From Enchytraeus crypticus (Eukaryota > Annelida > Clitellata > Enchytraeida > Enchytraeidae), in the NCBI GenBank assembly GCA_905160935.1, contig CAJHZI010000428.1, forward strand, positions 1,076,218 through 1,140,217: DNA of 64,000 bases. Reading direction: 5' to 3'. Every line of letters begins with the position of its first letter. The first letter of the stretch is position 1. The notes below the pieces were generated by a model. The model was given only the letters and a program-made list of their open reading frames with translations. It was not told where the DNA came from and did not search any database. This document shows, in pieces, positions 5,587 through 56,255 of the stretch. Made by a program: the position numbers and the translations under genes.

Positions 5587-6497
5587 TGCTGGATATCGTA
5601 AGATAAGCGACCGAGGATCAGTATGTGCGAGGTATTTGTCCTGGGCTCGCCCGTCACTAAAATCACTTTCGAGAAATAAAACTGACGTTAACACAGATTT
5701 TAGCTTTAGATCCTTAATGAAGGATATTTAGCACTGTTTAGATTACCACTGCTTAGCTTATCACGTCTTAGCCTATCACTGTTTAGATTACCATTGCTTA
5801 GCTTATCACGTCTCAGCCTATCACTGTTTAGATTACCATTGCTTAGCTTATCACGTCTCAGCCTATCACTGTTTAGATTACCACTGCTTAGCTTATCACG
5901 TCTCAGCCTATCACTGTTGTTATGATTTATTGTCTTGGTTTGATGGATCACTTCATTCATTGTTATTTTCCATCGTCACTGACTGGAACCAGTGGCGATA
6001 TCAGTAAGTTATTCAATCGCGGATCAGTTGGTGCGAGTTCAAATCCTGGACTCGCCGTCACTGACATCGCTTTCGAGTGAGGAAGCTGACGTTAACCTTA
6101 GCTTTAAACATTAGCTTTTTAGCTTTTATCATTGTTTTTGCAGGCTGAAAAAGCTTTTTATCATTGTTTTTGCAGGCTGAAGACAAACAGGCGCAAGAGG
6201 TAAGATAATTATTCTTATGAATTCTGTTTTCACTACTGTTTCTGTTTATATCTATAATTTATTTGCGGTCCGATTCTTATATTTGTGAAAAGTGTTAAAT
6301 ATTTTCTAGTAGTAGTAATGTTCATAATTCGACAGATGACACTGCTATGCATACCCGAATTTTTAGAGTATTCTGCTAGTCGCCAGTGGACGTTTGTCAA
6401 TATGTTCACTAATCCGCCAATTTATTATATGGCTGAAAAGATAAATTCTGTTAAACTATCTTGAGTTAATTAACCAGTTGATGAGAAATATTACTCG

Positions 6498-6538
<41 letters not shown>

Positions 6539-7667
6539 CATTTATCACTCACTCACTTAGTCACCCAGTCACTCAGTCGCTCAGTCACTCGCTTACTCAT
6601 TGACTCATCAGTAGTTTGGATCACTTTGTAATCCGCACTGATCGATGGTATGCTCGTTTGGTGAGAGCTGATGATTTTAATTACTCTATTTGGTCCCCCT
6701 CTTCTTCTTCATCTGCCTCATCGATAGCCCCTCGTTTTCTGGAACCCTTTTTTTTTTTTTTTTCTCCTGGTTGTATGCATGAATAACGAGGGTAAGAAGT
6801 TGATGATAAATTTGTTGATGCGATATTTACTCCCAGCATCCGATGCTTTATCTCTCTAAATCTACGTCGGCTTTGCTGTTAGGTTAGAGATGGTAAAGAG
6901 CTTAGATGGTAGGTAGGTTGTAGTGTGTTTAACGTCAAGGTTCAGTAGCACAAAGCTTTTCTTCAAGACGACTCGACACACTCGAGCTACCGTCACAAAG
7001 ATTAATGTAACAGTAAGTTACTGGTAGTTAAACTGGTAATTTGACAGTATATTGGAGCATAGATGGGTAGGAGTGTAGGGACCTGAGTGTGGTAGGGTAG
7101 GGTAGCGGGGGTAGCATATGCTAGTGTAGGCAGCAGGGGGTTGCTTAATGATTCTGATAGGACTATGAGGAACTTAGGCTTATCCAGTTTCAATAATAAC
7201 TGCTCAGAATATCTGCATGAATAATTATTCGTTTATTTCTCAGGAATTCTTGGTTAATTCGTCAAAAATTCAACATGAATTAGGGATACTAACGAGTTTC
7301 TCTCTCACTTTGATTTTAGCGAATGATAAGGATAAACTGTGAACATCTTCTCTATTTGTATCAAGGGTTGGCAAGTTTAGCCCGCATGCGGTTTATACCA
7401 TGGTTTTAACGATGGTTAAACGCATGGTATATCTGATATGTAGATAAGGCGAGAAAATAATTTAATCCAAAAAATTTGAGGTTTCTGATAAATGGGGGGC
7501 CTAAAAGTGTTGAAGAATTCACATCAACATATCCCCCTCTCTCTCTCCTTCCTCTCTCCCTCTCTCTCGCACACACACTCACTCTCTCTCTCTCACATTC
7601 ACTCACTCACTCTCTCTCTCTCTCCTCTCACTTACTCACTCTCTCTCCCTCTCTCACACTTCTTCCT

Positions 7668-7718
<51 letters not shown>

Positions 7719-10321
7719 TGTACGCCCGTGGAACGGACGTTAAATAACCTACAATAACGTGATGCTAGCACACGAGTATGAAAATAAATGTACTCGGTGG
7801 GGGGTTCTGTGGAAATTTTGAAATCTCTCTTGAGAGAATTAAGAGATAATTCTCGAGCAGGCGGGAGGTTGAGATAGGAACTATCAGGTTCTCCTCAACT
7901 GTGAGAAATATCCACCGGGAAGTGTTTTCTCTGGGCGGGCTGAGAGAATATATTGCCAGATATTGCTGTGTGTTACCGCGTAGAGTATTACGAGTCAATC
8001 ATATACTGGTATAGAGTATGATAAAGAGCACGAATTATAGAAGCTGTAAGGTATGTATTTATGTGAAACTGTGAAAGTTATGTGGAAATATATGCGATTT
8101 ATGTGAAACTGTGAAAGTTATGTGGAAATATATGCGATTTATGTGAAACTGTGAAAGTTATGTGGAAATGCATGCGTGTGACGTTGTGTAAATTATACTT
8201 TAAATTATTGCTACTGTAGGCCTATATGAAATTGTTATAATCTACTTTTTAAGTGTCGTTGTAGGCTGAAAGTTATGGGAACTATTTTACGCAACAGTGT
8301 GCAAGCGAGAGGGGGTTAAGGAGAGAGAGCGAGACAGAGAGAGCGAGACAGAGAGAGAGCGAGACAGAGAGAGAGAGACAGAGAGAGGGAGAGACACACA
8401 GAGAGAAAGAGAGCGAGAGAGAGACAAAGAGAAAGCGAGACAGAGTGAGAGAGAGGGTGATAAAGGGAATATATATTATACCGATAAGCAGACAGTGACT
8501 CATAAAAGGACGATGCAGAATTATTGAAGATATAAAATATGAAGAAATAAGAGTGTAAGAGACAGACAGACGAAGAGAGAGAGAGAGAGAGAGAGGAAGA
8601 GAGAAAGAGCTTGTTTTGGCGTAACAAAATAAACACCTCTATTTTCCGCCCGGTTGGTTGATGAAGATGTTTTGGACTAGGTAGAGAAGTGACTCCTATG
8701 AACTCGATACTCTACCAAACATCACATCATAGCGAGAGCGTATCAGTCACGTCATAGCTCTCACCCCATAAAACCTGCCCTCTAATGCCACCCCACTACC
8801 ATGATAACTGCTCTCAAATACTAAAACTATCCCCCCCCCCCTTCCCGGCTGGAGCCAGTGGCGGTGTCGGTAACATACTCGACCGCTGATCAGTATGTGC
8901 AGGGTTCAAATGCTGGGCTCGCCCGTCACTGACATCCCTTTCGAGTGCGGAAACTGACGTTAACAAAAGCTTTTTTTACCATGGTAATTGTGTAAAATAA
9001 AACCACCTCCCATTGTAACTTCTCTATATATAACTCTAGATGTAACTTCTCTATATATAGCTATCTCTCCCCCCCCCCCCCCGTTAATGTAGATTGGGCT
9101 CTGTCAGTAGCGTGAATGATTAGACGTTCGTTTGCGGATGAGTAGGTGCTCTGTTCAGATACAAGTCAGGCCACTAATTTGTATTAGAGATTAAAAGTTG
9201 ACTCTGAACAAGGATTTAGTCTCTTGTTCATCAGCATCAGTTCATTGGGTTGAATGGGTTCTGTACAGAACATACATGTAGGGCGGCAACATTCCTGCAT
9301 TCGTTTCTATCATCAGCAATCTTCACAGCGTCTTCCCATAAAATGTTTCATGCTCTCAAATCCTTGTTGATCGTATTTAGCCAAGTACTTCTAAGTCTTC
9401 CTCTTTTCCCTTTTCGTTGAGTTGGCTTTCAGTTAACTCTTGTTAAGTTTTAATAATGAAGGACCTATGGGGAGAGAAAACTGATTCGTGAGGGGGCAAT
9501 ATGTTTCTAATTTTATTTTTTGTTTTAATTTTGATTCGGATTGTGCCATGTAGCCGCCAATGAGTATCCATTGCGAGAGGGGTAGGGTTAATGGTGGACA
9601 CTCCCCCTAAGTATAAATGGCTCCGCCCCTAAACTTATAGCAAATTTACGACACTTCTGCTACACTGCAAATCTTTGCAGCAATTGATAAGATTGAAAAT
9701 AACTCTAGGAATTCATGCCTGCGGCCCTGCACATAACTTAATGCCAGATAATAGTTTTTCGTTACATTTTCAGTATAAATTGCATGTATACTTGAGGCCC
9801 TAATCTAATTGAACCATCCGACAACTGCACGCGATAGTTAGGGGCTACAACGAAACTTAAGGAAAGAGAATGATAGGTTGTGAGTGGAATCAATGGATTG
9901 ATTGATTGATTGGATGTGAGTGAAATCATTGGATTGATTGAATGATTGGATGTGAGTGGAATCAATGGATTGATTGATTGATTAGATGTGAGTGAAATCA
10001 GTGGATTGATTGAATGATTTGATGGGAGTGGAATCAATGGATTGATTGAATGGCTAGATGTGAGGAAAATCAGTGGATTGATTGATTGGCTGTGAGTGAA
10101 ATCAACTGATTAATTGAATGATTGAATCTCTAAAAGAATCTCCTGATTAGAATTACCATCTCATCTCTATCTCTTCTTACAATCTCGTACATCTGCATCT
10201 CTAAAGGAATCGCGTTTAGTCAATTATCTTTTGTTTATCCACTGCATACCTTTACTTGTAGTCTAGTTCGTACCTACAGGGCAAACCTTTTATAATAATC
10301 TACCCGTAGACTCTCTCTCTT

Positions 10322-10356
<35 letters not shown>

Positions 10357-11847: not shown

Positions 11848-11882
<35 letters not shown>

Positions 11883-12367
11883 GGATAGATAAAGCCGAGA
11901 AAGAAAGAGAGAAATCGAAAGAGATACAGCGAAAAGGTAGAGATCGATATATAAAGAGAGATAGAGAGAGAGGGGGGGGAGAGGAGGGACGGATGGAGGA
12001 AGAGAGAGACAGAGAGGGAGAGATAGAGAGAAAGATAAAAGACTTAATATACCGGTACTAGTATAATGCTCTGTAGCATGATCTAGGTGGAGATAGATGG
12101 ATACTTGATATCTTCATAAGTCCGTGCAGCGTGGATCTACTCAGTCAGTGCTGCTGTACAGCTCACCCGTACTCTAGAATTCTAGGAATCTACTATTATG
12201 CTTTTACTCTGCACTACCAATGTGCTTTTAGTGTAACAGAAACGAATTTTGAACGTATAAATGTTGACACTTCGCTGAGATTGCTTAAGTATCGTTTAGA
12301 AAAGAGCATTAATTGTCTGCAATGTGCCTTACTGTTTGAATGAGTGACACACTGTTCTCAGGTGTAA

Positions 12368-12419
<52 letters not shown>

Positions 12420-18385: not shown

Positions 18386-18422
<37 letters not shown>

Positions 18423-25724: not shown

Positions 25725-25771
<47 letters not shown>

Positions 25772-28700
25772 GTACGTTACGCCTGCTATTTATAGGTTCA
25801 GATTTGCCAGAATTGATGCCTTGGCATTTGACTGAAGAAGAGAAGAACAGAGAAGTCATTGTAACTCTCAAAGGTTATCAAGAGTTTGTGTTACAAGAGT
25901 AATAACGTCCCTGACATCGTTCTTGTATGAGGAAAAGGACGTTAGACCTTTATTATTATTAAAAGAGTAATAGTAATAGTTAACACATAACCCAGGACTG
26001 GCTGAAGTAATAACTGCAGACTCGGACAGAAAAATCTCGCTAACGAAATCTCGATAAATTCGACAAAGCTCAAATATTTCTACACAAGTTTCGGAGCTTC
26101 TGGAGGAGGAATTTTGGTGTATAATCAACAAATTAGGTGAAAATATATCCAGTGGTAAAAATATTTTATCGTTTCTGCGAAAATGTGCCAAAATCAATTT
26201 TAACAAGGTTATTTTATTTATAATACTGCAATAGTCTTCAGAATTTAGGATATCTTTAACAGAAGAACGTATTTTTAATATTTTCCCTTAGTTATGGCAG
26301 CCAGAAGGTATTGTAGGCTTCAAGATCTTCAACTATAATTCTAGTTCTAGTATGGCTGGAGCCAGTGGCGAAGTCGGTAAGATACTCGACCACGGATCGG
26401 TATGTGCAGGGATCAAATCCTTGGCTCGCCCTTCACTGACATCGCTTTCGAGTGAGGGAATTGACGTTAACCTTTGCTTTACGAGCTTTTTTCTGAAACA
26501 GTAGCTCTGAGATAACAGTAAGCATATTTTGTTCTCGGACCAGATTGGGTAGGTTTAGAATCCTTAATAACTAAATCATAAAACAAGTAAATTACGCGCC
26601 TAAATATTAAGCCTGGCCTGGTCGCTGCAGCAGCTGCGTACTAAATTATTGAAGACAAGATAAAATAGCGAAACTCAGCCATGATTACAAAATTGCGCAT
26701 TCAAGAATCTACTAAAGTAGATGTCTCCACTACATAAGTAAAGCCATAAATACAGACCAATAGTGCAATTAGGTATGGATAAAGCATAGACTTCGTGAAG
26801 GGATTAACTTGTTGATCTAAGGAGTGCTGTTATCGAGCGAGAAAGCAGACTTTGAGTATGAATATGTACCTTGAACCTGCCACGTGGCAGTGCACTGAAG
26901 AAGTTCAATTAATTGACTTATATTAGTTTAATTACTTAACTTATTGATTGATTTATATATATTTATTTGCCATAACGAAAATATTTTTGATTGATTTTTT
27001 AAATGAGCCGTTCAATACCTATTGATCGCTATGATTAACTTATCAATTGATTGATTGATCTATTACTCGATTAACTTAGCAATTGATTAACCAATTGATC
27101 GATTAACTTATCAATTGATCTATTGATCGATTAACTTATCAATTGATCTATTGATCTATTAACTTATCAATTGATTGATTGATCGATTAACTTATCAATT
27201 GATGCTGACAGGATCACGTGACGCTAGCGTAGACTCTCTCTCGTTTGAGACACTCATACCCCGCCCGATCATACAGCGCTACGTGGCTCTGCTGCAGGAG
27301 CACAGGCGGCTCATCCTCTCCGGGCCCAGCGGTACCGGCAAGACCTTTCTAGCCCACCGGCTCGCTCAGCATGTCGTCACGCTGTGAGTAAAAAACAGTA
27401 AAAACGCTGGTAAAGCTTAGGTTAACGTCAGTTTCCTCACTCGAAAGCGATGTCAGTGACGGGCGAGCCCAGGATTTGAACCCCACACCTACTGATCCGC
27501 GATCAAGTGGGGGGTGAAGTAGGGGTTTCAGTTCCTTCCGCCTCAAGCTCTTGTTTCTACTTCCACCTTCTTATTTTCCTCTGAAATGGTTCAGAGCCCT
27601 TCAGCCTTGAACCATTTAATAATAATAAATAATAATAAAGGTTTAACGTCCGTTTCCTCATCCAGGGACGATGTCAGGGACGTCATCCCTGGAAAATTTC
27701 TATAGTAGTGGAAGGCTAAATTATTTTAAATTATTTTAATTATCATTTAGTAATTAGCCCTACCCCTAGATATTGCCTGAAAGTTTGTAACTGTCAAAGT
27801 AAGAGTTTACAAAATAATATAGCCAGAGTATGATTTGAACACGCGACGTAGGAATCTTGAAGCGGACTCTATCGCTGTATCTAAACCCGCTGTTTCATTA
27901 GTCATTACTGACTCTTAAATGTCGATATAGAACCTAAGCTCTGATCTTTGCCTAATTCCCAGTTTTCGCTAAATAGACAATGAATGTTAAGTAGTCAAGT
28001 GGTTTGAGACCACAATCGGTGTAGCGACTAGACCTCTGCAAGTCAAGAATGTGAGCGACCAGTTGAATAGAACTCATTACCACGTGACTACACTGCCCAT
28101 CACTGTCATATATCTGCGTCAGTCGTCTCTAGCGAGCACGTACAGTTATCAGTAAAGGCGAATCTATATTCCCGCATCAACTCAAGACCCAGTCTAGAAC
28201 CTACTCGTTTTCTTGGCTAATATTTAGCGCTATTTCTATATTTAGCGCTATTTCTATATTTAGTGCTACTTCTATATTTAGTGCTACTTCTATATTTAGT
28301 GCTACTTCTATATTTAGTGCTACTTCTATATTTAGTGCTACTTCTATATTTAGTGCTACTTCTATATTTAGCTACTTCTATATTTAGTGCTACTTCTATA
28401 TTTAGTGCTACTTCTATATTTAGTGCTACTTCTATATTTAGTGCTATTTCTATATTTAGTGCTACTTCTATATTTAGTGCTACTTCTATATTTAGTGCTA
28501 CTTCTATATTTAGCGCTGCTTCTATATTTAGTGCTACTTCTATATTTAGCGCTATTTCTATATTTAACGCTATTTCTATATTTAGCGCTAAGTCTATATT
28601 AAGCGCTATTTCTATATTTAGCGCTATTTCTCTATTTGGTTCTATTTCTATATTTTGTGCTATTTCTATATTTAGTGCTATTTTTATATTTAGTGTTATT

Positions 28701-31700
28701 CTATATTTAGCACTATTTCTATATTCGCACAGATCTGGCAGGGAATTGGCCGGTTCTATAGCCACGTTTAACGTTGACCACAAATCCGGTAAAGAACTTC
28801 GACAGTATCTCTCACATATAGCAGAGCAGTGTGAACATTCCGACTCAGCTGCTGCAGCTAATCCTGACGTAGCTGCTGCAGATCCTACAGCTGCTGCAGA
28901 GACGAGAGCAGCGGAGGCGGAGCCAGCAGCAGCTGGGGGCGGAGACTTGCCAGCTGTGATAATACTGGACAACCTGCACAACGTGGGGTCACTGGCCGAA
29001 GTGTTCAACGGCTTCTTTACGACGAAGCATCACCAGTGGTGTGTTATTTGAGATTTAGTTATTAATGGTCGGTTTCATGAGAAGCAGATAACATTGTATT
29101 TGTTCGAGATTAGATAATCTGCTGCTAAACTTTTAACTGCAGATTAAGGCTTTTGCGTTTCATGAGTCAAGTTTTAATAATGATTAAGTTATCTGACTTT
29201 AAGCCTCGGTTAGATTGGAACAATAAATAATCTATGCAGTAAAGAGTATAGAGCTGTACCGATGGCTTTTCGGTAGCAGGATGACGGCAGATCACTATCG
29301 GTAGCCTAACAATTTATTAATTGTTTTAGCCCGACCTCAGCTAAACTGGGACTCAATGCAATATGATGATAGTTAATTTCTCTTATTAATATTTTTTTTG
29401 AATGATCTCTATGGTTCACTGTGTTACTGGTAATTAATGAAATTGTACTTAATGCATGTGTACTGCATAGGTGTGTTAATCCCTAGTTTTGTAATTTAAA
29501 CCCCTCTAAAGTGATCTTTTCTCCAGCAGTGTCTGAACGAAGACCGTCATCGAGACTACTTTTAATTCTCTCCATGATAATCATAACTAGCTAATAAGAT
29601 CATACAATCATTAATCATAACTTGGTTGCAAGCTCCGATACTTTATGAACCTACCTGGGCCCTAAGAGATATCCTTTATTTCTTGACTGACCTGAACTTT
29701 GAACCTAGACCGCATGCTTTCGAAGCGAATGCTCTAGTCGTTACGTCATATCCACACCCCATTTTATTATCATAGCTTTTCGTATTTCTTTTTTATTTCA
29801 GCCCGTATATTATCGGTACAATGAACCATACAGGCAGCCAAGGCTCCTCGTCTACCACGACAAACCTGCAGCTACACCACAACTTTCGTTGGGTGCTCTG
29901 TGCCAATCACACCGAACCAATCAAGAGCTTCCTCTCTCGCTACCTCAGGCGTCGTCTACTAGAGGCTGAACTGGGCGGAGCCTCGGAAGTAGGTCAAAGG
30001 GGCGTGTTCTCGCCGAATTTAGGTCACATAGGTGGTGTGCTAAAGGGTCAGCTAAAGGGTAGGGGTGGAGTCTTGCAGGGCCAGGATTTGTTGGAAATGA
30101 AGAGGGTTGTGGATTGGTTGCCTCAAGTCTGGCTGCACGTCAACAAGTTCTTAGAAACACATTGCTCGTCTGACGTTACTATAGGTAAGTTAAGTCACAA
30201 CATTGTGGTGTTTTTATTAACAGTTAATAGTTAGGTCACAACATTGTGGTGTTTTTGTTAACAGTTAATAGTTAGGTCACAACATTGTGGTGTTTTTGTT
30301 AACAGTTACTAGTTAGGTCACAACATTGTGGTGTTTTTGTTAACAGTTAATAGTTAGGTCACAACATTGTGGTGTTTTTGTTAACAGTTAATAGTTAGGT
30401 CACAACATTGTGGTGTTTTTGTTAACAGTTAATAGTTAGGTCACAACATTGTGGTGTTTTTGTTAACAGTTACTAGTTAGGTCACAATATCGTGGTGTTT
30501 TGGTAGTAGCTAATTATTAGGTCTAAATATTGTGGTGTTTTGTTAATAGTTGAACTTTTTCAGATATAGTTTGTAGACTGTACTGAGGAAGAAATGCGAA
30601 TATATATTTGGTGTTAAGTTTAAAAATGTTTATTAGAATTTATTATTGTTATTCCTGAAGAAAAAGTGTTTACTTAATTCCTGAAGATACTCTCTTTCTC
30701 TTTTGTCCTATACACTTAACTTATCAGTTTAATACTGTGTATGTGTGCGTATGTAGGCCTATATAGGCATGTATCTATGTGTGTATGTGTATGTATGTGT
30801 ATATATGTGTATGTGTGTGTATGTATATTTGTGTGTGTGTATGTGTGCAGGACCACGTCTATTCCTCTCATGTCCTATGAGCGCCACTGTACGTATGTAT
30901 ATGTATGTGTGTATGTATATATGTACGTGTGTATATGTATTGATGTGTGTATGTATGTGTGCATGACCACGTCACTTCCTGTCATGTCCTATGAGCGCCA
31001 CTGTACATATGTATATGTGTACCTGTATATATGTGTGTATGTATGTGTGCAGGACCACGTCTGTTCCTCTCTTGTCCTATGAGCGCCTCTGAGGCACTCG
31101 TGTGGTTCACTGACCTGTGGAACTACTCCGTAGTGCCCTACCTGCTGGAGGCAGTTAGAGAGGGACTGCAGGCAAGATCTAGAGATTATCAAATAATAAA
31201 ATAAAGATCTAGAATTTATCATATAAATTGAATAAAGATCTAGAGTTTATCAAATGAATAACATAAATAAAGATCTAGAGTTCATCAAATGAATAAAATA
31301 AATAAAAATCTAGAGTTTATCAAATATTCAATTTGAATTTAGAGAGTTATTATGAAAACAATTGCACTTAATTCCTGAATTCAAAAGTTAAAGAAATCAT
31401 TAACAGCGTTAGAAGTCATTCACAGTAATCAATAGCCATTAACAATCATTTACACTGATTAACAATCATTAACACTCATTAACTATTGTTAATGAAAGTT
31501 AGCGTATCACTTCTCATGCTCTATCACGCTCATACAGAGACTTTTCAGTTAATTTAACAATTATTAATAGTGAAGACCTATTCATTCAGTATTTGATTCA
31601 GCGCTCCACTGATTTATTCAGTCTTTGATTCAGTACTTGACTGATTTATTCAGTACTTGATTCAGTACTCCACTGATTCATTCAGTCTTCGATTCAGCAC

Positions 31701-33213
31701 TTCACTGATTTATTCAGTCTTTGATTCAGTACTTGACTGATTCATTCAATACTTGACTGATTCATTCAGTACTTGATTCAGTACTTCATTGATTCATTAA
31801 GTACTTGATTCAGCGTTTGACTGATTGTAGACCTATGGACAGAGATCAGCGTGGGAGGACCCCGTTGACTGGGTGATTGACAGCTTGCCCTGGGCCCAGG
31901 CTGACCACGCCTCCCTGCTTCATCTCAGGCACGAGGATGTGGGCTATGACCTGCAGGGGGCTGTCCCTAACAGCGGGGGCGCGGCGTCAGCATCTCACGG
32001 GGGCGGGGCCAGTAGAAATCAGCCGTCAATCAATTCAAACTCCACCCCCTCTACTGCTAATCAAAACAACGAGACAGCTGATTCTAAAGATCCTCTGGTA
32101 AGTTAGACTCGATTTCATTTCATCGATTAACTTTAATTCTCTTTCTTGTAACTCAATCATTCCATTGTAACGGTTCTATTGTAAGGTCACCACGTTTTTA
32201 GTATTCACGATTATTATTATTATTCATCATTATTTTTTTATTTTTTTTATTTTACCCCGGGTGTAAAGAACCTGGGATTTGATAAAAACGATTCGAGCAA
32301 AACATGCTGAATCGACGCCCGGCTACTCGAGGCCATCTAGCTGCTTAAAAGAATTGCTGAAGCAGACTGCATTAAATCTTTACAAAGTTATGGAAAGCAT
32401 TTGCCAAAGAAAAGATGTCTCTCGCTTATCGCCGATGCGCTCTGCAATTAGCCTTCCTATACTATTAATGAAGTCAACTCCATCGGGATTCATGGTGCCC
32501 ATGGTTTCAATGGCCACCAGAAAAACTTCATATCCTAAGGATAGATCGCGGTACTTGTCCATTTTCTTAGAAGCAGCAGCTCCACCGGCAGAGACTGAAG
32601 TTGTACTCAGGTAGGAGTTTGCCATAGTGTCAATGACCGTAACATTCATACGGCACATTTATCATTGCACCGAGGCACTAAGGTTAAGCCATCCGGGCGC
32701 CTACCATCTGACCTAGACAACCCGCTTGGTTCCTTCGAGGAAGGGATTCCCTTAATATTATTATTATTATTACTATTATCATTATTATTATTAGTATTAT
32801 TATTATTCACAGAACTGGTTATACGGAAATGGACTAAATTGCCTAACGGTTTAAACAAGTGGTGTTAAAAAGTGATAGATATCAACATAGCTCATCATTT
32901 CGCTATAATGCGTTTTGCGTTTTATAATGTTTTTACCCATTCGCCTATTTAACCGAAAGTTTTATGAGGAAACGGTAAACAAAATCTTTATAGTTTTGAT
33001 GTATATAATTTTTATAATTTTTATAATAGTTTTTATAATTGATATTTGATATAGTTTTGATCGTGGCGTTGATTGACGTTTCAGATGTCAATGATACTCC
33101 GCCTACAAGAGGCTGCCAGCTATTCCAGCCCTCAGAGCAACGAGAGTGACTCCGCCTCCAGTGTTATAGAACAGGGCGACTATGAGACAAGAAGGCGTGG
33201 CCTAGACGATTAG
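184..33213 (+). CDS. NAV: Neuron navigator (NAV/UNC-53/Sickie family), 3' part of gene, 19 exons
   Basis: Neuron navigators are large cytoskeletal proteins acting at microtubule plus ends and actin in migrating cells and growing axons. Family identity comes from conserved blocks in the right order: VVAAFEQSL...MT with the following coiled coil, DSVSSLNS, KKSW then SFSKAF, the KLTDIQLDAL..AHQL coiled coil, the DSLSFETLIPRP block, Walker A GPSGTGKT, CPYIIGT, RYLRR, FLSCPM, DLWNYSVVPYL, WEDPVDWV and DPLMSMILRLQEAA. Exons: 184-1210, 6176-6199, 14092-15492, 16234-16308, 16657-16864, 18003-18241, 18705-18898, 19746-19890, 21308-21482, 22196-22329, 23285-23377, 24345-24465, 25796-25873, 27212-27383, 28733-29038, 29802-30184, 31053-31171, 31831-32097 and 33085-33213. 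From exon 3 on, all phases match and the frame stays open to the stop at 33211. The gap between exons 1 and 2 is out of phase, so at least one exon is unplaced there. The 5' end is outside the window. Confidence 0.93.
1570..1790. repeat. TTGATTGAC minisatellite
   Basis: Tandem TGATTGATTGAC units of 8-16 bases. The reverse strand reads as an artefactual VNQS-repeat frame. Confidence 0.85.
1798..1922 (-). mobile_element. SINE-A copy (tRNA-derived SINE)
   Basis: Reverse-strand copy of the most frequent SINE in the window. It retains GCCAGTGGCGATGTCGGTAA and the TTTCGAGTGAGGAA 3' part, with a damaged B box. Confidence 0.75.
2118..2258 (+). mobile_element. SINE-A copy (tRNA-derived SINE)
   Basis: Forward copy starting GGAAGCCAGTGG, with the polymerase III A-box-like TGGCCAAGTCGG, a B-box-like GGCTCAAATCC, and the TTGACGTTAACATTAGC tail. 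Confidence 0.85.
2765..2965 (-). mobile_element. LINE-2 3' end fragment (GATGAT tail)
   Basis: On the minus strand this reads through a degenerate LINE C-terminus into the tail GTATCCCAACTCTTGTTAAA followed by GATGATGAT. The same tail follows a clearer coding remnant at 34,850-35,095, and a close relative of this fragment lies at 49,305-49,545. Confidence 0.6.
3100..3610 (+). pseudogene. Degenerate LINE reverse-transcriptase C-terminus
   Basis: Translation at 3,164-3,352 gives KLRILNSCVISVLIYGYESW followed by ELTNAMEKKLNS, the thumb and C-terminal signature of RTE/Jockey-like LINEs (the YGxExW motif). After a stop the remnant continues as RTDQLMVRESIKRRMKWAGS in another frame, then RSRRRLEG. 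It is frameshifted and dead, and sits in NAV intron 1. Confidence 0.75.
3820..3882. repeat. (AT)n microsatellite
   Basis: An uninterrupted TA dinucleotide run of about 60 bases, flanked by partial copies of CTCATTTAGCTCGCTACCTA. Confidence 0.95.
3985..4075 (+). other. tRNA-like sequence (tRNA pseudogene or SINE head)
   Basis: GCCTCG at the 5' end can pair, with one mismatch, with CGAGAC just before CCA. Between them lie an A-box-like TTGCAGAGCTTATAGCGG and a B-box GGTTCAAATCC. No clean anticodon arm is visible, and the downstream CATCATCATC is the usual tail of repeats here. It is probably a SINE head rather than a working tRNA. Confidence 0.45.
4325..4575. repeat. CT-rich microsatellite tract
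   Basis: A (CT)n run with interruptions that ends in (TCTG)n. The 122-codon open frame through it is low-complexity SL repeats and not a gene. GGAACCGGACGTTAAAT at 4,629-4,646 is a fragment of the GACGTTAA tail module. Confidence 0.9.
4778..4922 (-). mobile_element. SINE-A copy
   Basis: Nearly full reverse copy from the AGCTTTACCAGCTTT tail through the B box (GGTTCAAATTC when reversed) to GGGCTGGAGCCAGCGGC. Confidence 0.85.
4975..5050 (+). other. tRNA-like sequence
   Basis: TTGGATGCTCGCTTGTGTGAC resembles a tRNA 5' half, followed by a B-box GGGTTCAAACCTC. No paired acceptor stem is evident, so it is probably the head of another SINE family. Confidence 0.35.
5183..5312 (+). mobile_element. 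SINE-A copy
   Basis: Contains CTCGACCGCGGATCTGTATG, GGGGTTCAAATC and TTTCGAGTGAGGAAACTGAC. An 11-base stretch (ACCGCGGACTC) is locally repeated near its head. Confidence 0.85.
5430..5590. repeat. CT-rich microsatellite
   Basis: A near-continuous CT dinucleotide run with T interruptions. Artefactual open frames run through it on both strands. Confidence 0.9.
5592..5708 (+). mobile_element. SINE-A copy, diverged
   Basis: Contains GATCAGTATGTGCGAGG, CTGGGCTCGCCCGTCACTAA and AACTGACGTTAACA, with a broken B box. Confidence 0.75.
5730..5925. repeat. 45-bp minisatellite, about 4 copies
   Basis: The unit is CTGTTTAGATTACCACTGCT followed by TAGCTTATCACGTCTCAGCCT and ATCA. Because it is a multiple of three, the reverse strand shows an artefactual 15-residue repeat frame. 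Confidence 0.9.
5980..6116 (+). mobile_element. SINE-A copy
   Basis: GGAACCAGTGGCGATATCAG, GAGTTCAAATCCTGGACTCG and TTTCGAGTGAGGAAGCTGAC are in order. It ends about 60 bases before the NAV microexon. Confidence 0.88.
6176..6199 (+). CDS. NAV: Probable NAV microexon (24 bp)
   Basis: A strong acceptor (ATTGTTTTTGCAG) precedes 24 bases read as AEDKQAQE, followed by the near-consensus donor GTAAGA. Phase 0 at both ends joins cleanly to the next placed exon at 14,092. A tandem copy of the acceptor plus the first bases of the exon lies just upstream (6,117-6,150), the same exon-edge duplication seen at secure NAV exons, which supports it being an exon. Its join to the 184-1210 exon is out of phase, so an exon between them is missing or one of the two calls is wrong. 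Confidence 0.45.
7538..7715. repeat. CT/CACT-rich microsatellite
   Basis: A CT tract with CACTCACT interruptions. GGAACGGACGTTAAATAA at 7,730-7,747 is the GACGTTAA tail module in the same arrangement as at 4,630. Confidence 0.9.
8058..8170. repeat. 40-bp minisatellite, about 3 copies
   Basis: The unit starts TGTGAAACTGTGAAAGTTAT. Two copies are identical and a third is diverged at its end. Confidence 0.9.
8310..8612. repeat. GA-rich microsatellite
   Basis: GAGA and GACAGA runs in two blocks separated by about 90 bases of ordinary sequence. Frames on both strands are artefacts. Confidence 0.9.
8846..8976 (+). mobile_element. SINE-A copy
   Basis: A well-preserved head (GGCTGGAGCCAGTGGCGGTG), a B box GGTTCAAATGC with one substitution, and an AACTGACGTTAAC tail. 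Confidence 0.9.
9885..10125. repeat. 36-bp minisatellite with TGAT core, about 6 copies
   Basis: Units of GAGTGGAATCAATGGATTGA plus TTGATTGATTGGATGT with small changes. The reverse strand gives an artefactual SNQSINPLI repeat. Confidence 0.88.
10310..10495. repeat. CT-rich microsatellite
   Basis: CT runs interrupted by ATACCTAT units. Confidence 0.9.
10620..10760. repeat. TTGA microsatellite
   Basis: An irregular TGAT run, the most common tetranucleotide repeat in NAV introns. Confidence 0.85.
10935..11110. repeat. TACA/CATA microsatellite
   Basis: Imperfect (ACAT)n. The minus-strand Tyr/Met/Cys-rich frame is an artefact. Confidence 0.9.
11250..11360 (+). mobile_element. SINE-A copy, 5'-truncated
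   Basis: It begins inside the head at GATATTCAACCGCGGATCCG and continues to ACTGTCGTTAACATTAGC. Confidence 0.82.
11472..11580. repeat. 57-bp tandem duplication
   Basis: Two copies of TTGATCGATGGTGTTCTCAG and the following bases, nearly identical, 57 bases apart. Confidence 0.85.
11695..12045. repeat. GT then GA microsatellites
   Basis: (GT)n at 11,695-11,758 is followed by GAGA-rich sequence to about 12,045. Confidence 0.9.
12360..12785 (-). mobile_element. 5S-rRNA-derived SINE (SINE3-like)
   Basis: Read on the minus strand from 12,785, the element has an internal stretch matching the animal 5S rRNA 3' half: TCGAAGTTAAGCTGCATCG, then CGGTTAGTACTT and GGGTGACCACCTTGGAAGAC. A body of about 200 bases and a (AAT)n tail at 12,370-12,415 follow. 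The 5S match covers roughly 12,680-12,755. Families of SINEs with 5S heads are called SINE3. The body end (minus-strand reading of AGCGGTGTCATGAC and TTCAAGACTGCTTTACAGG) recurs without the 5S part at 41,690-41,800. Confidence 0.7.
12786..14091. other. Intron 2, last part
   Basis: Contains a TATTTACGACTGAAATC minisatellite (12,940-13,130), a LINE-2 tail fragment (13,335-13,400, minus) and a short AAGTATCT minisatellite (13,725-13,830). I see no exon. The interval 13,420-13,720 shows nothing recognisable. Confidence 0.55.
12940..13130. repeat. 17-bp minisatellite
   Basis: About ten imperfect units of TATTTACGACTGAAATC. Confidence 0.85.
14092..15492 (+). CDS. NAV: NAV exon 3 (Ser/Lys-rich region with SxIP motif, 467 codons)
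   Basis: The acceptor CCTACAG at 14,085-14,091 gives phase 0, and the consensus donor GTAAGT at 15,493 ends the exon at phase 0 after MTQRIR. The region is disordered, Ser- and Lys-rich, with a basic block (HERGSKSGKDKKVKMK) and an acidic Asp run. The tetrapeptide SRIP at 14,350-14,361, followed by LVKTQ and close to the basic block, fits the SxIP motif by which plus-end proteins bind EB1. The 3' end (SFWDSLSGYADCEDSSDDDE) leads into the coiled coil. An ATG lies at 14,110, but the open frame runs upstream of it and the splice acceptor is the better start. Confidence 0.88.
14350..14361 (+). other. NAV: Candidate SxIP EB-binding motif in NAV
   Basis: The codons read Ser-Arg-Ile-Pro, preceded by FSP and followed by LVK, with a lysine/arginine-rich block within 40 residues. 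SxIP motifs in basic Ser-rich context recruit proteins to growing microtubule ends through EB proteins, a known property of navigators. Function here is inferred from the motif alone. Confidence 0.55.
15480..15735. repeat. 31-bp minisatellite seeded at the exon 3 donor
   Basis: The units start at the exon 3/intron junction. The true junction (CGAATTAGAGTAAGTTATG) is followed by TAGAGTATGTTACG and TAGAGTAAGCTATG copies, then at least five near-identical units of GGTAAGAGCATTGGAGTTAG plus TTATGTGTTTA. Confidence 0.88.
16005..16225. repeat. TTGATTGAACGG minisatellite
   Basis: GAACGGTTGATTGATTTATT units run to within 10 bases of the exon 4 acceptor. Confidence 0.85.
16234..16308 (+). CDS. NAV: NAV exon 4 (coiled coil start)
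   Basis: 25 codons, IRKLRRELESAQEKVHTLTT and QLTTN, between TTAAATAG and the donor GTAAGTATT, phase 0 at both ends. Heptad-like leucines and charged residues fit the start of the NAV coiled coil. Confidence 0.9.
16351..16394 (+). other. Partial duplicate of exon 4 3' end with donor
   Basis: CACACATTAACCACACAGCT followed by TACCGCTAATGTATATATT repeats the last 30 bases of exon 4 and its donor region. Relative to the exon it has one silent change (CTA to TTA) and one replacement (Thr to Ala), and the donor is GTATAT. Confidence 0.85.
16395..16655. repeat. TGAT repeats in intron 4
   Basis: TTGATTGA-rich sequence surrounds a decoy copy of the exon 5 start at 16,565-16,609. Confidence 0.85.
16565..16609 (+). 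other. Partial duplicate of exon 5 start with acceptor
   Basis: After an intact TTCAG acceptor, 45 bases read AHVVAAFEQSLSNMT and then break into TATTGATTAATTG. Differences from the true exon start are two silent changes and Asn for Ser. Asn is the usual residue here in vertebrate navigators, so the copy keeps the ancestral state. Confidence 0.88.
16657..16864 (+). CDS. NAV: NAV exon 5 (VVAAFEQSL coiled coil)
   Basis: The acceptor ATTTAG and donor GTATGT bound 69 codons plus one base. The stretch VVAAFEQSLSSMTQRLQKL and following QKDQQLNELRRTIEAM is one of the most conserved NAV blocks (vertebrate form: VVAAFEQSL, NMTSRL, EKDTELLDLRETI). The 3' part is Ser/Gly-rich linker. Confidence 0.96.
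16885..17190. repeat. CT-rich microsatellites in intron 5
   Basis: Two CT tracts flank TTTGACGTCCGGTTACACGCC at 16,953, which is the reverse of the ACCGGACGTCAAA tail module. Confidence 0.88.
17348..17490 (+). mobile_element. SINE-A copy, nearly full length
   Basis: One of the best copies: TGATCCAGTGGCGATGTCGG, GGGGTTCAAATC, CATCGCTTTCGAGTGAGG, AACTGACGTTAACCTTAGC and the terminal TTTACCAGCTTT. Confidence 0.92.
17491..18002. other. Rest of intron 5
   Basis: AT-rich sequence with TTGAACATT repeats at 17,615-17,690 and TGAT/TGAC repeats at 17,815-17,990. No exon seen. Confidence 0.6.
18003..18241 (+). CDS. NAV: NAV exon 6 (SVSSLNS ... KKSW)
   Basis: The acceptor GATTTTAG completes the phase-1 codon of exon 5, and the donor GTAAGG follows TGG at phase 0. 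It encodes a Ser/Ala/Gln-rich linker with SADSVSSLNSFVSASS, matching the NAV SDSISSLNS block, and ends RKKNKKSW like the lysine run in other navigators. Confidence 0.94.
18242..18704. other. Intron 6
   Basis: Holds a LINE-1 3' end (GCCGGTAGGCAGTTCACTAA, 18,368-18,387) running straight into a (GA)n tail to 18,420. No exon seen. Vertebrate navigators have Val-Tyr-Glu between KKSW and the next block, and a 9-base microexon here cannot be excluded. Confidence 0.55.
18705..18898 (+). CDS. NAV: NAV exon 7 (SFSKAF block)
   Basis: TTTTAAG acceptor, donor GTGAGT, phase 0 to 2. LRTSFSKAFARKKSTRHGSL matches the NAV LRSSFNKAFSIKK block. It continues SDVESDELS and a Ser/Pro/Thr-rich stretch. Confidence 0.94.
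18900..19390. repeat. CTTATCACTGAC / GGCTGATGACTG minisatellites starting at the donor
   Basis: Short units begin about 10 bases after the exon 7 donor: first CTTATCACTGG, then GACCTATCACTGGCTGAT alternating with ATTATCACTGATTTATGACT. Higher-order copies are visible at 19,075-19,270. Confidence 0.85.
19391..19417 (+). other. Partial duplicate of exon 8 (middle part)
   Basis: GATCTCAAGTTAACGGACAT followed by TCAGCTC equals bases of exon 8 coding DLKLTDIQL, with one silent change, then dissolves into TGAT repeats. Confidence 0.85.
19418..19745. repeat. TGAT microsatellite with embedded exon copy
   Basis: Long TTGATTGATTGA runs on both sides of a 70-base duplicate of the exon 8 start. The minus-strand NQSINQS frame is an artefact. 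Confidence 0.88.
19539..19608 (+). other. Partial duplicate of exon 8 start with acceptor
   Basis: After an identical ATCAG acceptor, 70 bases encode the same residues as the start of exon 8 (SGTVDHTAVLQLRQEL and HEKDLKL). Five codons differ (ACA/ACG, GTC/GTA, GAC/GAT, CTT/TTA, CAC/CAT), six base changes, all silent. No usable donor follows and the frame stops at TGA in the TGAT repeat. Confidence 0.9.
19746..19890 (+). CDS. NAV: NAV exon 8 (KLTDIQLDAL coiled coil)
   Basis: The ATCAG acceptor supplies one base to complete the exon 7 codon, and the exon ends after CTCAAG at phase 0 with a weak donor GTTCTC. LRQELHEKDLKLTDIQLDAL and SSAHQLEQMCEIMNKL match the vertebrate LRSELWEKEMKLTDIRLEAL and NSAHQLDQIRETM coiled coil. 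Confidence 0.95.
19905..20395. repeat. CTAGTT hexamer minisatellite
   Basis: About 490 bases of GTTCTAGTTCTAGACCTA with higher-order 12- and 18-base variants, starting just after the exon 8 donor. The VLDLVLVL frame is an artefact. Confidence 0.9.
20400..20785 (+). pseudogene. LINE-1 3' end (5'-truncated, frameshifted)
   Basis: Reads WTWKRMEKISWTQEV in one frame and then QLINVLRNRKKRWIGHILRG, followed by RMEGKRDRRRPVLGMLDDLK, then the untranslated end ATACCATGGACCTGCCAGTA and GGCAGTGCACTAA and a GAGA tail. It matches the longer copy at 53,040-53,675. This is the extreme C-terminus of an RTE-like LINE. Confidence 0.88.
20880..21305. repeat. TGAT repeats up to the exon 9 acceptor
   Basis: TTGATTGATTGATCGATTGA runs with a 70-base higher-order unit (ATCAGATTAACTAATTGATT onward), repeated three times at 21,105-21,260. 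The last unit forms the polypyrimidine-poor acceptor of exon 9. Confidence 0.88.
21308..21482 (+). CDS. NAV: NAV exon 9 (end of coiled coil, Ser-rich linker)
   Basis: TTGATAG acceptor, donor GTAATA, phase 0 to 1. GEMASLKADNDRLQ matches the vertebrate LEVDLLKAENDRLK end of the coiled coil. The rest is a Ser/Thr/His-rich linker ending GATENIVE. Confidence 0.92.
21598..21825. mobile_element. Inverted cluster of LINE-1 3' ends
   Basis: Three minus-strand copies of the LINE-1 tail (TACTGGCAGGTCCATGGTAT and ...TCTCTTAGTGCAC) lie in tandem about 70 bases apart at 21,605-21,770. A plus-strand copy (ACTATGGACCTGCCAGTAGG, CAGTGCACTAAGAGAGAG) follows at 21,780-21,825. Confidence 0.85.
21826..22195. other. 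Rest of intron 9
   Basis: Mixed sequence, with a short TAATAA/TGAT run at 22,112-22,180. No exon seen. Confidence 0.55.
22196..22329 (+). CDS. NAV: NAV exon 10 (LKVKVRL beta region)
   Basis: TTTTGTAG acceptor, donor GTATAG, phase 1 to 0. ERRRLKVKVRLSHTAESSFN corresponds to the EEVTLRVVVRM strand that precedes the AAA domain in vertebrate navigators. It ends in a serine run then CTQE. Conservation is weaker than elsewhere, but both phases fit their neighbours. Confidence 0.82.
22318..22498. repeat. 44-bp minisatellite seeded at the exon 10 donor
   Basis: Four copies of a 44-base unit, each containing the last 12 bases of exon 10 and its donor (CACAAGAGGTATAGACACC) plus ATGTTGTACAGTACTGTTG. 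Each copy reproduces the same GTATAG donor. Confidence 0.92.
22493..22620 (+). mobile_element. tRNA-headed SINE (Arg-tRNA-like head)
   Basis: TGGCCCAATGGATAGCATGC resembles the 5' half of an animal tRNA-Arg including the A box. A weak B-box-like GGCTCATATCCC follows, then a T-rich body. The match is by eye and no second copy was found in the window. Confidence 0.45.
22996..23158. repeat. GA-rich microsatellite in intron 10
   Basis: GAGAGAGT-type run. Confidence 0.9.
23165..23300 (+). repeat. Three tandem copies of the exon 11 acceptor and first 16 coding bases
   Basis: Units of TCTATTATCTCTATGTACAG plus AACAAGCACCCCACGT start at about 23,175 and 23,215, and the true exon start is at 23,285. 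The first copy keeps a usable CAG, while the second has TAGAG. The repeat unit is 38-48 bases. Confidence 0.9.
23285..23377 (+). CDS. NAV: NAV exon 11 (pre-AAA beta region)
   Basis: GTACAG acceptor, donor GTATGG, phase 0 at both ends, 31 codons. YLIGIVHITPCATWESLDSS plus VRKTFK aligns with vertebrate FFLGCSKVSGKVDWKMLDEA then VFQVFK. The sequence is diverged but the spacing of Gly, Trp, Leu-Asp and Phe-Lys is kept. Confidence 0.88.
23415..23485. repeat. GATGAT/GACGAC repeat at a LINE-2 tail
   Basis: CCCTTTAAGGGAAGATGATG begins the run, matching the LINE-2 tail. Confidence 0.75.
23520..23660 (-). mobile_element. SINE-A copy
   Basis: Reverse copy, well preserved, from AAAGCTGGCAAAGTTTATGT to CGCCACTGGCTCCAGCC. 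A badly decayed forward copy (GTGGATCAGTTGGTGCAGGG) follows at 23,700-23,810. Confidence 0.88.
23915..24118 (-). mobile_element. SINE-B copy (second tRNA-derived SINE)
   Basis: On the minus strand: a head with CTCGTGGGTTCGAATCTCAG as B box, then GCGCTGATCTGAGAGTAAA, GACTGGTTATACGGACAATG and GATAGATATCAACATAG. Related copies lie at 58,120-58,345 (minus), 60,640-60,835 (plus) and 32,812-32,932 (plus, 3' part). Confidence 0.82.
24345..24465 (+). CDS. NAV: NAV exon 12 (linker before AAA domain)
   Basis: GTGTAG acceptor, donor GTTTGT, phase 0 to 1. EFISRVDSVGVSAAVGTGNG and LSLGPESIARYHLNSVSRHK align with vertebrate DYISKMDPASTLGLSTESIH then GYSISHVKR. Confidence 0.92.
24790..25090. repeat. 34-bp minisatellite
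   Basis: About eight units of TATAGCATAGTATACAGCGG plus TACGGTATGTCATAG. Confidence 0.9.
25300..25420 (+). mobile_element. SINE-A copy
   Basis: TGGCTGGAGCTAGTGGAGAT head, intact GGGGTTCAAATCC B box, TTTCGAGTAAGGAAAC. It lacks the last part of the tail. Confidence 0.88.
25480..25620 (-). mobile_element. LINE-2 3' end fragment
   Basis: Minus strand: GAGAAGGTCCAATCGTATCC then TGACCCTCGTTAAACTGGG, the LINE-2 tail. Confidence 0.65.
25727..25769. repeat. (AT)n microsatellite
   Basis: About 40 bases of TA dinucleotide, 27 bases before exon 13. Confidence 0.95.
25796..25873 (+). CDS. NAV: NAV exon 13
   Basis: TTTATAG acceptor, phase 1 to 1, 26 codons. SDLPELMPWHLTEEEKNREV and IVTLKG align with vertebrate LDAEPPEMPPCRRGVNNISV then SLKG. 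The donor GTTATC is weak; it is chosen because the next exon continues the conserved order and phase. Confidence 0.88.
25874..27211. other. Intron 13
   Basis: Contains a TTA-tailed tail module (25,893-25,968), a SINE-A copy, a LINE-1 end fragment (26,868-26,905) and TTGATCGATTAACTTATCAA repeats (27,000-27,205) reaching the exon 14 acceptor. The minus-strand frame at 25,868-26,206 has no recognisable domain. 26,500-26,860 shows nothing recognisable. Confidence 0.55.
26350..26492 (+). mobile_element. SINE-A copy
   Basis: Full-length forward copy from ATGGCTGGAGCCAGTGGCGA to TTTACGAGCTTTTT, with a B box GGGATCAAATCC carrying one change. Confidence 0.9.
27212..27383 (+). CDS. NAV: NAV exon 14 (AAA domain, Walker A)
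   Basis: CTGACAG acceptor, donor GTGAGT, phase 1 to 2. It carries DSLSFETLIPRPIIQRYVAL then LQEHRRLILSGPSGTGKTFL, closely matching vertebrate DSLVFETLIPKPMMQHYISL. Walker A GPSGTGKT is at 27,322-27,345 with the invariant Lys. The exon ends RLAQHVVT. This opens the NAV AAA+ ATPase. Confidence 0.97.
27400..27512 (-). mobile_element. SINE-A copy
   Basis: Reverse copy starting 17 bases after the exon 14 donor. It keeps the tail, GGGTTTCAAATCC-like B box (reversed) and part of the head. Confidence 0.88.
27513..28215. other. Rest of intron 14
   Basis: Includes a minus-strand TTA-tail module (27,615-27,700) and a tRNA-like stretch at 27,985-28,060 (AGTCAAGTGGTTTGAGACCA, CAATCGGTGTAGCGACTAGA) related to 42,060-42,170 on the minus strand. 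No exon seen. Confidence 0.55.
28218..28722. repeat. 18-bp minisatellite abutting the exon 15 acceptor
   Basis: About 27 units of TTCTATATTTAGTGCTAC with GC-variant units. The last unit becomes ATTTCTATATTCGCACAG, the acceptor of exon 15, so the polypyrimidine tract is itself a repeat unit. Both-strand open frames here are artefacts, although the plus frame happens to run into the true exon. Confidence 0.93.
28733..29038 (+). CDS. NAV: NAV exon 15 (AAA domain, Walker B; Ala-rich insertion)
   Basis: TTCGCACAG acceptor, phase 2 to 2. The first part (SGRELAGSIATFNVDHKSGK, ELRQYLSHIAEQ) aligns with vertebrate SGREVTEGIVSTFNMHQQSC. An Ala-rich insertion of about 35 residues (28,841-28,945) precedes LPAVIILDNLHNVGSLAEVF, the Walker B region. 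The exon ends KHHQ, and the next exon gives CPYIIGT after joining TG and C. The donor GTGTGT at 29,039 is fixed by this match. Walker B has Asp-Asn where human NAV2 has Asp-Asp and typical AAA+ proteins Asp-Glu. Confidence 0.95.
29039..29801. other. Intron 15
   Basis: Plain AT-rich sequence with a LINE-2-like tail (GCCCGACCTCAGCTAAACTG, 29,329) and a tRNA-like reverse segment at 29,690-29,745. No exon seen. Confidence 0.6.
29802..30184 (+). CDS. NAV: NAV exon 16 (AAA domain, sensor and arginine region)
   Basis: TTATTTCAG acceptor, consensus donor GTAAGT, phase 2 to 1. PYIIGTMNHT is the sensor-1 region (vertebrate PYIIGTTNQP). It continues NLQLHHNFRWVLCANHTEPI and FLSRYLRRRLLE with the conserved RYLRR basic run. 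A Gly-rich insertion with an internal echo (GGVLKGQLKG, GGVLQGQ) precedes VVDWLPQVWLHVNKFLETHC and SSDVTIG, all conserved NAV features. Confidence 0.96.
30185..30540. repeat. 41-bp minisatellite starting at the exon 16 donor
   Basis: About eight copies of TAGTTAGGTCACAACATTGT plus GGTGTTTTTGTTAACAGTTAA. The first unit contains the real donor (AGGTAAGTTAAGTCACAAC); later units read TAGTTAGGTCAC, having lost the AAG of the donor. Confidence 0.92.
30851..30887 (+). other. Partial duplicate of exon 17 start with acceptor
   Basis: After GTGTGCAG, GACCACGTCTATTCCTCTCA and TGTCCTATGAGCGCC copy the exon 17 start with two silent changes, then it dissolves into GTATGTAT. Confidence 0.9.
30965..30999 (+). 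other. Second partial duplicate of exon 17 start, acceptor lost
   Basis: GTGTGCATGACCACGTCACT shows CAG changed to CAT. Coding differences are two silent changes and a Leu to His replacement. Confidence 0.85.
31053..31171 (+). CDS. NAV: NAV exon 17 (FLSCPM, DLWNYSVVPYL) with GC donor
   Basis: TGTGCAG acceptor, phase 1 to 0. PRLFLSCPMSASEALVWFTD and LWNYSVVPYLLEAVREGLQ align with vertebrate PCFFLSCPIGIEDFRTWFID then LWNNSIIPYLQEG. The exon ends CTGCAG followed by GCAAGA: the donor is GC rather than GT, in otherwise ideal context (CAG/GCAAG). Translation of the next exon continues the family sequence exactly from this point. Confidence 0.94.
31172..31340. repeat. AAGATCTAGAG minisatellite starting at the GC donor
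   Basis: Units of about 30-37 bases: AAGATCTAGAGTTTATCAAA plus TGAATAAAATAAAT, about five copies. The first unit is GCAAGATCTAGAGATTATCA at the exon edge. Confidence 0.88.
31560..31825. repeat. TTGATTCAGTACTTGACTGA minisatellite
   Basis: Irregular 17-35 base units reaching the exon 18 acceptor, whose GTTTGACTGATTGTAG is a diverged unit. Confidence 0.85.
31831..32097 (+). CDS. NAV: NAV exon 18 (WEDPVDWV block, linker)
   Basis: GATTGTAG acceptor, consensus donor GTAAGT, phase 0 to 0. TYGQRSAWEDPVDWVIDSLP aligns with vertebrate VHGQKAAWEDPVEWVRDTLP. A Gly/Ser/Asn-rich linker follows and the exon ends SKDPL, as in vertebrate SDPL. Confidence 0.95.
32290..32760 (-). pseudogene. Mobile-element ORF remnant (PDGLTL / VTVIDTMANSYL domain)
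   Basis: On the minus strand RRPDGLTLVPRCNDKCAV and, one frame away, NVTVIDTMANSYLS are followed by KMDKYRDLSLGYEVFLVAIE, TMGTMNPDGVDFI and GDKRETSFLWQMLS. This order is familiar from multi-copy retroelement-associated proteins of marine invertebrates; I recall the family pattern but not a firm name. A frameshift separates the two parts and the 5' side ends in (AAT)n, so it is dead. Confidence 0.6.
32812..32932 (+). mobile_element. SINE-B 3' part
   Basis: ACTGGTTATACGGAAATGGA, CTAAATTGCCTAACGG and GATAGATATCAACATAGCTC match the plus-strand copy at 60,720-60,835. It lies directly after a (TTA)n run. Confidence 0.78.
33085..33213 (+). CDS. NAV: NAV last coding exon and stop
   Basis: GTTTCAG acceptor, phase 0, 42 codons and TAG at 33,211. 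MSMILRLQEAASYSSPQSNE aligns with vertebrate MAMLLKLQEAANYIESPDRE, the NAV C-terminus. The tail VIEQGDYETRRRGLDD is part of the unit that was then amplified downstream. Confidence 0.95.
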   Translation: MSMILRLQEAASYSSPQSNESDSASSVIEQGDYETRRRGLDD

Positions 33214-33545
33214 CACCGCCTCCAGTGTTATAGAACAGGGCGACTATGAGACAAGAAGGCGTGACCTAGACGATTAGCACCGCCTCCAGTGTTATAGAAA
33301 AGGTGACTATGAGACAAGAAGGCGTGGCCTAGACGATTAGCACCACCTCCAGTGTTATAGAAAAGGTGACTATGAGGCAAGAAGGCGTGGCCTAAACTAT
33401 TAGAACCGCCTGTAGTGTAATAGAACAGTGTGGCCATAAGTAAAGAAGGTGTGGCCTAGACGACTAGCTCCGCCTCCTTTGTCTTAGACCAGGGTTACTA
33501 TAAGAAATGAAGGCGTGGTCTAAGTGACAAGTACCGCCTCCTATG
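33150..33545 (+). repeat. 64-bp minisatellite derived from the NAV terminal exon
   Basis: Units of 63-64 bases start CCGCCTCCAGTGTTATAGAA at 33,152 (the coding copy), 33,216, 33,280, 33,343, 33,406, 33,470 and 33,534. Each includes the last 20 codons and most keep the stop (GACGATTAG). Later copies are progressively diverged, so the coding copy appears to be the founder. Confidence 0.93.
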
Positions 33546-55625: not shown

Positions 55626-56255
55626 ATGCAGGATTTATTCTCATCTGTTAACATAACAAGCGCAGGATTTCTACTCTCAGCCCCCCGGCCCCCTATCCCT
55701 GGTGAGGAAACTGATCCCAGTGAGTCCCAATCCACCCGGAGTGCCCCTGCGGCCCCTTCCTACCTCCGCTCTCACTCCCAACTGGGAAAGTCTTCTATCA
55801 CCGCCGCAATGAGTCACCGCTCTTCATCGATATCTCCGGCCGCAACTCCGCGCAAGTCCAACCTTGATAGGACGTTGGTTGCCCGGGGGCCCGCCGATGA
55901 AGCCCCGCTGGGGTTTGAACCTGAGGGTAGCGTCTCCGGGTCACCGGGGCTGTTTGCCGAGACATCTACTGGGACTCCTCGGCGATGTCTGAGGTGGGCT
56001 GAGGGACTCGAAGCCCTGCTAGAGGATGGAGAAGGGGTTAAGCTGTTTAAGTCCTTCCTTGATCAGGAGTTAGAGTCTTCCAAAGCTCTGGACTTTTGGT
56101 TCGCGTGCAGCGGGTTGAAGTTGATGGATGCGAGGGATACTGGTCGTATTGCCAGCATGGTGAAGGTTATCTACAAGCTGTACATCAGAAGAGAGGTGTT
56201 TGCTCTCAGTCCTGCTGTAAAGAAGACGATCATGGAGAGGCTTAAGCGGCGCGAG
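55626..56255 (+). CDS. AXIN: Axin exon 1 (tankyrase motif, first part of RGS)
   Basis: I chose the ATG at 55,626 because it places 20 residues before RPPIPGEE, close to the 21 in human AXIN1. The open frame extends 78 codons further upstream without similarity, and the TCATGCAG at the same spot could instead be an acceptor. Exon 1 ends after RLKRRE with donor GTAATC, phase 0. The RGS part has LFKSFLDQELESSKALDFWF and ACSGLKL, matching vertebrate [20 protein letters not shown]. Confidence 0.92.

Follow-up and report, generated by a model that had tools for sequence, protein, structure and literature searches.

The window analysed is a stretch of 64,000 nucleotides from the annelid Enchytraeus crypticus (contig CAJHZI010000428.1, positions 1,076,218 to 1,140,217 of the forward strand), and NAV positions given below are those of the window. 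The gene on its + strand is, judged by its predicted protein, a neuron navigator (NAV). Nine Pfam families were matched by the C-terminal part of 945 aa, with a NAV1-like AAA lid (E 3.5e-45) and the NAV ubiquitin-like domain as the best matches. The gene model was read from the sequence and has 18 exons with compatible phases, designated E2 to E19; the start of E3 is uncertain, and E1 lies outside the model. Starting inside E3 and splicing at the real sites gives a frame of 1393 codons with a terminal stop. NAV is followed by an Axin-like gene (55632–58574, + strand) with an RGS domain and a tankyrase-binding region that remained under its cut-off. One tRNA-like short interspersed element was seen by eye in several intronic copies (e.g., 5985–6110, 8855–8970, 17360–17470, and 26350–26480). 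A search of the whole window against Rfam gave no matches.

Copies of NAV exon edges were sought by offset scoring, in which gapless copies within 1500 bp of each edge were evaluated with the exon and intron sides scored apart. An edge passed with an exon score of at least 8 and an intron score of at least 5. A nearby copy of the exon edge together with adjoining intron was found in this way at 7 of 34 tested edges, namely the donors of E3, E4, and E10 and the acceptors of E5, E8, E11, and E17. Self-BLAST of the window was less sensitive and recovered only E3, E10, E17, and E19; as it missed most of the copies, it was replaced by offset scoring. The copies at the NAV edges are as follows.

6118–6181, + strand: 32-bp duplication at the E2 acceptor, with a decoy acceptor before 6144 and the real one before 6176.
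15480–15752, + strand: 3' end and donor of E3 (15492/15493), start of a 31-bp array (tandem-repeat coordinates, self-BLAST, offset scoring).
16348–16416, + strand: copy of the E4 3' end (34 nt) with a weaker donor, offset +73 (offset scoring).
16549–16618, + strand: copy of the E5 acceptor and the first ~45–54 nt, offset −92 (offset scoring).
19391–19417, + strand: further, shorter partial copy of the E8 interior, upstream of the long one (by eye).
19459–19609, + strand: 71 nt from the start of E8 with the acceptor and the intron sequence before it, copied at offset −207 (offset scoring).
22317–22480, + strand: E10 donor with 13 exon nt and three further copies, 44-bp array (TRF, offset scoring).
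23172–23302, + strand: E11 acceptor, array of ~42–48 bp units, two upstream copies (TRF, offset scoring).
30802–31091, + strand: E17 acceptor with 39 exon nt, two upstream copies and the real edge (self-BLAST, offset scoring).
30851–30892, + strand: first E17 copy, candidate cassette exon (splice-site scoring).
33152–33522, + strand: end of E19 with the stop codon, 64-bp array running into the 3' UTR (TRF, self-BLAST, offset scoring).

In the copy of the E3 donor, at offset +60, the alignment takes in 13 nt of the exon. The E5 copy reaches an in-frame stop codon, while in the E8 copy (exon part 19539–19609) all six differences from the exon are synonymous, unlike in the pooled decoys described below. 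The exon parts of the two E11 copies start at 23195 and 23237, with 24 and 29 exon nt aligned. The E17 copies start at 30851 and 30965, the second without AG. The first has an AG acceptor with a score of 6.6 (6.3 for the real one), followed by a 42-nt open, frame-preserving stretch and, on its 3' side, by a modest donor-like GTATGT with a donor score of 2.6; it is possibly a cassette exon. The list of copied edges in the original prediction is thus essentially right apart from E2 and E19. It gave 12–70 copied exon bases. At the seven passing edges 13–71 nt were aligned, while the E2 copy, a true 32-bp duplication, includes only 6 exon bases, fell under the threshold, and is listed at a relaxed one. 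At E19, the repeat takes in the end of the coding sequence with the stop codon, but no splice site. Anatomically, it is correct to describe the copies as families of decoy splice sites, the decoys being predicted ones.

Further minisatellite arrays lie beside NAV edges.

18909–19386, + strand: 22/44-bp array, starts 10 nt past the E7 donor (TRF).
28220–28725, + strand: 18-bp array, ends 7 nt before the E15 acceptor (TRF).
30188–30551, + strand: 41-bp array, starts 3 nt past the E16 donor (TRF).
31174–31326, + strand: 35-bp array, starts 2 nt past the E17 donor (TRF).
31580–31826, + strand: 32-bp array, ends 4 nt before the E18 acceptor (TRF).

For these arrays, borders lying exactly on splice sites had been claimed, but comparison of TRF coordinates with the exon model places them 2–10 nt off. 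The E17 donor is apparently of the GC type (exon end CAG, intron start gcaaga, 31171/31172).

When the same offset test was applied to other points of NAV, copies were found at 14/410 exon-interior points and at 236/570 random intron points. The rate at edges (7/34) is above that of exon interiors (Fisher P = 0.0004) and below that of introns (P = 0.018), which means that the copies are real and non-random, and that a preference for boundaries is absent. The comparison was extended to a sample of seven genes, composed of NAV and six multi-exon channel genes taken from an ion-channel family search regardless of repeats; these genes and the small loci mentioned below were chosen by protein family. 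Exon edges outside NAV came from a purpose-built gene finder trained first on NAV. It gave 13 of 16 internal NAV exons exactly, but, NAV having been part of the training set, this does not check the finder independently. The first count (exon score of at least 9; edges 19/182, introns 601/2530, exon interiors 94/1532) was dropped, as it included a repeat in C108 mis-called as an exon, along with several exons resembling transposons. After cleaning by hand the list held 88 exons: two were removed from C108, one from C165, one from C377, and two from C574, one start was moved in C652, and E3 and E19 of NAV were added.

In this list, local duplications cross 14 of 174 edges, with acceptors and donors equally represented (7/87 each). 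Rotation of the exon model along the gene (1000 times) gave an expectation of 21.2 ± 4.4, which is a mix of introns, exons, and flanking DNA, and the probability of a rotated count reaching the observed one was 0.965. Exon edges are therefore not preferred, and the claim that duplications favour them failed, in these seven genes, in the kind of shifted-position comparison that had been proposed as its check. Duplicated sequence within 5 nt of an edge was present at 21 edges against 16.2 ± 3.1 by rotation, which is not significant. Towards the exon, the frequency of crossing declines smoothly. At 100 and 20 nt inside the intron it amounts to 25% and 17%, respectively; at the edge itself it is 8.0%, and 30 nt inside the exon it has dropped to 1.2%. 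Of the 120,296 positions in introns, 14.3% are crossed, as against 0.77% of the 15,413 positions in exon interiors. A second set comprised a stretch of a myosin gene, the Axin-like part of the window, and six potassium-channel loci. The potassium-channel loci L002 and L006 were omitted, as they had no confident exon, so that 6 of 8 were used; here 1 of 33 edges, in myosin, was crossed.

At relaxed thresholds, 21 of the 174 edges in six of the seven genes carried 44 copies when the number per edge was capped at six. Edge copies occur in NAV and five channel genes, as well as at the myosin edge. The clearest case is the acceptor at 7716 of channel gene C107, where a unit of ~40 bp with the acceptor and about 20 exon bases is present in at least nine copies within 430 bases, counted by eye. 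In the copy of the C108 donor at 15317, only 5 intron bases match. The matches at the C165 donor at 23878 (+1462) and the C652 acceptor at 12329 (+585) are probably due to chance, and the two edges were left out when the best copies were compared (see below). C108 and C652 are similar channel genes; for five copy-bearing edges of the pair, a homologous edge exists in the analysed sequence of the other gene, and none of the five has a copy in its counterpart (homology judged by eye; a sixth edge is without counterpart in that sequence). This absence suggests rapid turnover of the copies. Several isolated two-copy duplications share 0–4 bases at the junction; as the 106 junction rows mix isolated duplications with members of arrays, no mechanism is claimed from them. 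An exon-interior copy was also noticed within an intron of C652 (L029–L031, reverse strand, about 17361–17420), just upstream of an acceptor; the copy is in frame with the acceptor, and so the exon was extended into it by the gene finder.

Duplications of exon-intron boundaries, termed mirages, are said to have been described originally in a 2002 paper on Adh. In amphioxus they affect Adh3, the globins BflGb6 and BflGb9, troponin C, and PGBD5, where they reportedly leave regular splicing undisturbed and have been suggested as a way in which new introns could arise (PMC3087553, PMC3902484). They share with the annelid copies minisatellite-like tandem units of ten to ~160 bp that span boundaries at both 5' and 3' edges in several genes, with AG or GT in many copies. 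In the annelid, the unit spans the boundary, both acceptors and donors are involved, and AG or GT is kept in 38 of 44 copies; by this anatomy, the predicted decoys are of the same kind as the amphioxus mirages. They differ from the described amphioxus cases in the host, an annelid and not a cephalochordate, in being measured against intron and shifted-position expectations, and in being known from DNA alone. Intron gain by tandem genomic duplication in potato RdRp has in common with them the copied splice signals, which could yield a new intron or exon, but in the annelid the copies lie inside existing introns and no new intron was identified (PMC4974935). Internal tandem repeats of human paralogues are likewise intragenic and affect exon structure, whereas the human case reportedly concerns segmental duplications (PMC2812944). 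With ordinary intronic minisatellites the annelid arrays share diverged tandem units, but some annelid units include coding sequence and a splice site. Within the open-access literature searched, mirages by name appeared only in amphioxus papers, and no report from an annelid was found by searches that addressed annelids only in small part.

The copies are probably mirages that arise when tandem duplication acting throughout introns spills over exon edges, and that survive where a splice site and the frame stay intact. According to this explanation, introns of this annelid would undergo frequent short tandem duplication, at times repeated into arrays, and some of the duplicated segments would end within the adjoining exon. 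The mutational step may be slippage, a template switch, or repair of a staggered break. If one intact splice site and the reading frame remain, the copy would survive and stay in the intron as a decoy, which would afterwards drift as noncoding DNA; copies that damage the exon would be purged. Purifying selection is thus the presumed cause of the gradient from intron to exon. The idea that selection keeps copies only if some intact site survives, already put forward as a possible cause in the original prediction, fits the steep fall into exons, from 8.0% at the edge to 1.2% at +30 nt. Together with the shifted-position control, the occurrence of mirages in an annelid suggests that they are to be expected as a by-product when tandem duplication is highly active in introns. 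Cryptic splice sites, exons, and introns could be born by this route, which is open to testing.

It is quite unlikely that selection instead maintains the decoys for use as alternative splice sites or exons. The preserved AG or GT, several acceptor scores equal to or above the real ones, the frame-preserving E17 copy with both splice signals, and the synonymous differences of the E8 copy would agree with such a role. Pooled over the exon parts of all copies, however, 29 synonymous and 93 nonsynonymous differences were counted, which are not independent because arrays count repeatedly; this is what is expected of noncoding DNA, and the copies drift accordingly. In the best copy per edge (n = 19), the decoy is weaker than the real site in 12 cases, equal in 4, and stronger in 3. 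Moreover, the E5 and E8 copies meet intronic stop codons, their donors are weak or too near, and amphioxus mirages are said to leave regular splicing undisturbed (PMC3087553, PMC3902484). An artefact of the hybrid PacBio/Illumina assembly, also raised earlier as a cause, is hardly credible. Over ~6.5 kb, contigs C108 and C417 differ solely by an additional 86-bp tandem copy in C417, with 100% identity elsewhere, and for this reason copy counts may be uncertain. Yet the NAV frame is intact, the units are presumably shorter than single reads, several substitutions are present in many of the copies, and independent genes show the same anatomy again; given the substitutions and the recurrence in unrelated genes, an artefact is unlikely for most copies.

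Another possibility, which we hold with considerable doubt, is that a mutational process tied to exons (for instance through transcription, splicing-dependent chromatin, or replication pausing) raises the frequency of tandem duplication within 150 nt of them, mirages being the fraction that crosses the edge. Coverage by duplications is 0.359 at 20–150 nt from exons and 0.217 at 150–600 nt (76 introns; P = 0.001 in 1000 rotations within introns), although the distance bins and the statistic were chosen after the profile had been seen. The enrichment persists with any one gene left out (P of at most 0.0033, 300 rotations each), in short and long introns (38 each), and alike on donor and acceptor sides. 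Interspersed repeats have no such pattern (0.220 and 0.222), and, descriptively, the second set points in the same direction, with 0.08–0.12 at 20–150 nt and 0.04–0.07 beyond. Singly, however, six of seven genes have the same direction and only three reach P < 0.05, with C107 reversed (0.193 and 0.233). Simple repeats are also enriched near exons (0.125 and 0.061), so that the pattern may be a general property of intron near exons, and unmasked transposons are a possible source of it. Without introns holding edge copies, the difference shrinks to 0.240 against 0.189 (61 introns, P = 0.012). Within the last 10 nt before the edge, coverage falls below expectation (0.158 against 0.226); the hunch that repeats favour the neighbourhood of exons consequently has some support at 20–150 nt, but not in these last bases. 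The flank coverage nevertheless leaves plain uniform spill-over incomplete as an explanation. An exon-proximal process is compatible with spill-over from intron-wide duplication and would add to it.

If true genome-wide, the enrichment in flanks would suggest a mutational bias next to exons. It is a speculation, and a rather improbable one, that the 20–150 nt flank is a hot zone of tandem duplication in this annelid, perhaps also in amphioxus, where a mutational process linked to exons would keep generating spare splice sites and, now and then, exon copies that preserve the frame (the 42-nt copy of E17 may be one of them), and so would go on supplying new exons and introns.

The 86-bp difference between C108 and C417 (L017, 4105–4191; L032, about 7495–7667) is not at an exon edge and may be a real polymorphism or an assembly difference; the two contigs are possibly redundant, or the duplication is a fresh one. 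In the mitochondrial contig of the assembly, the long protein genes lie on one strand in the Lumbricus-type order of annelids, which is also the order given for the mtDNA of E. crypticus (PMC8460440). Fragments of cox1 with stops were seen in nuclear contigs (L010, L011, and L012; contigs C373 and C166) and are probably nuclear copies of mitochondrial DNA.
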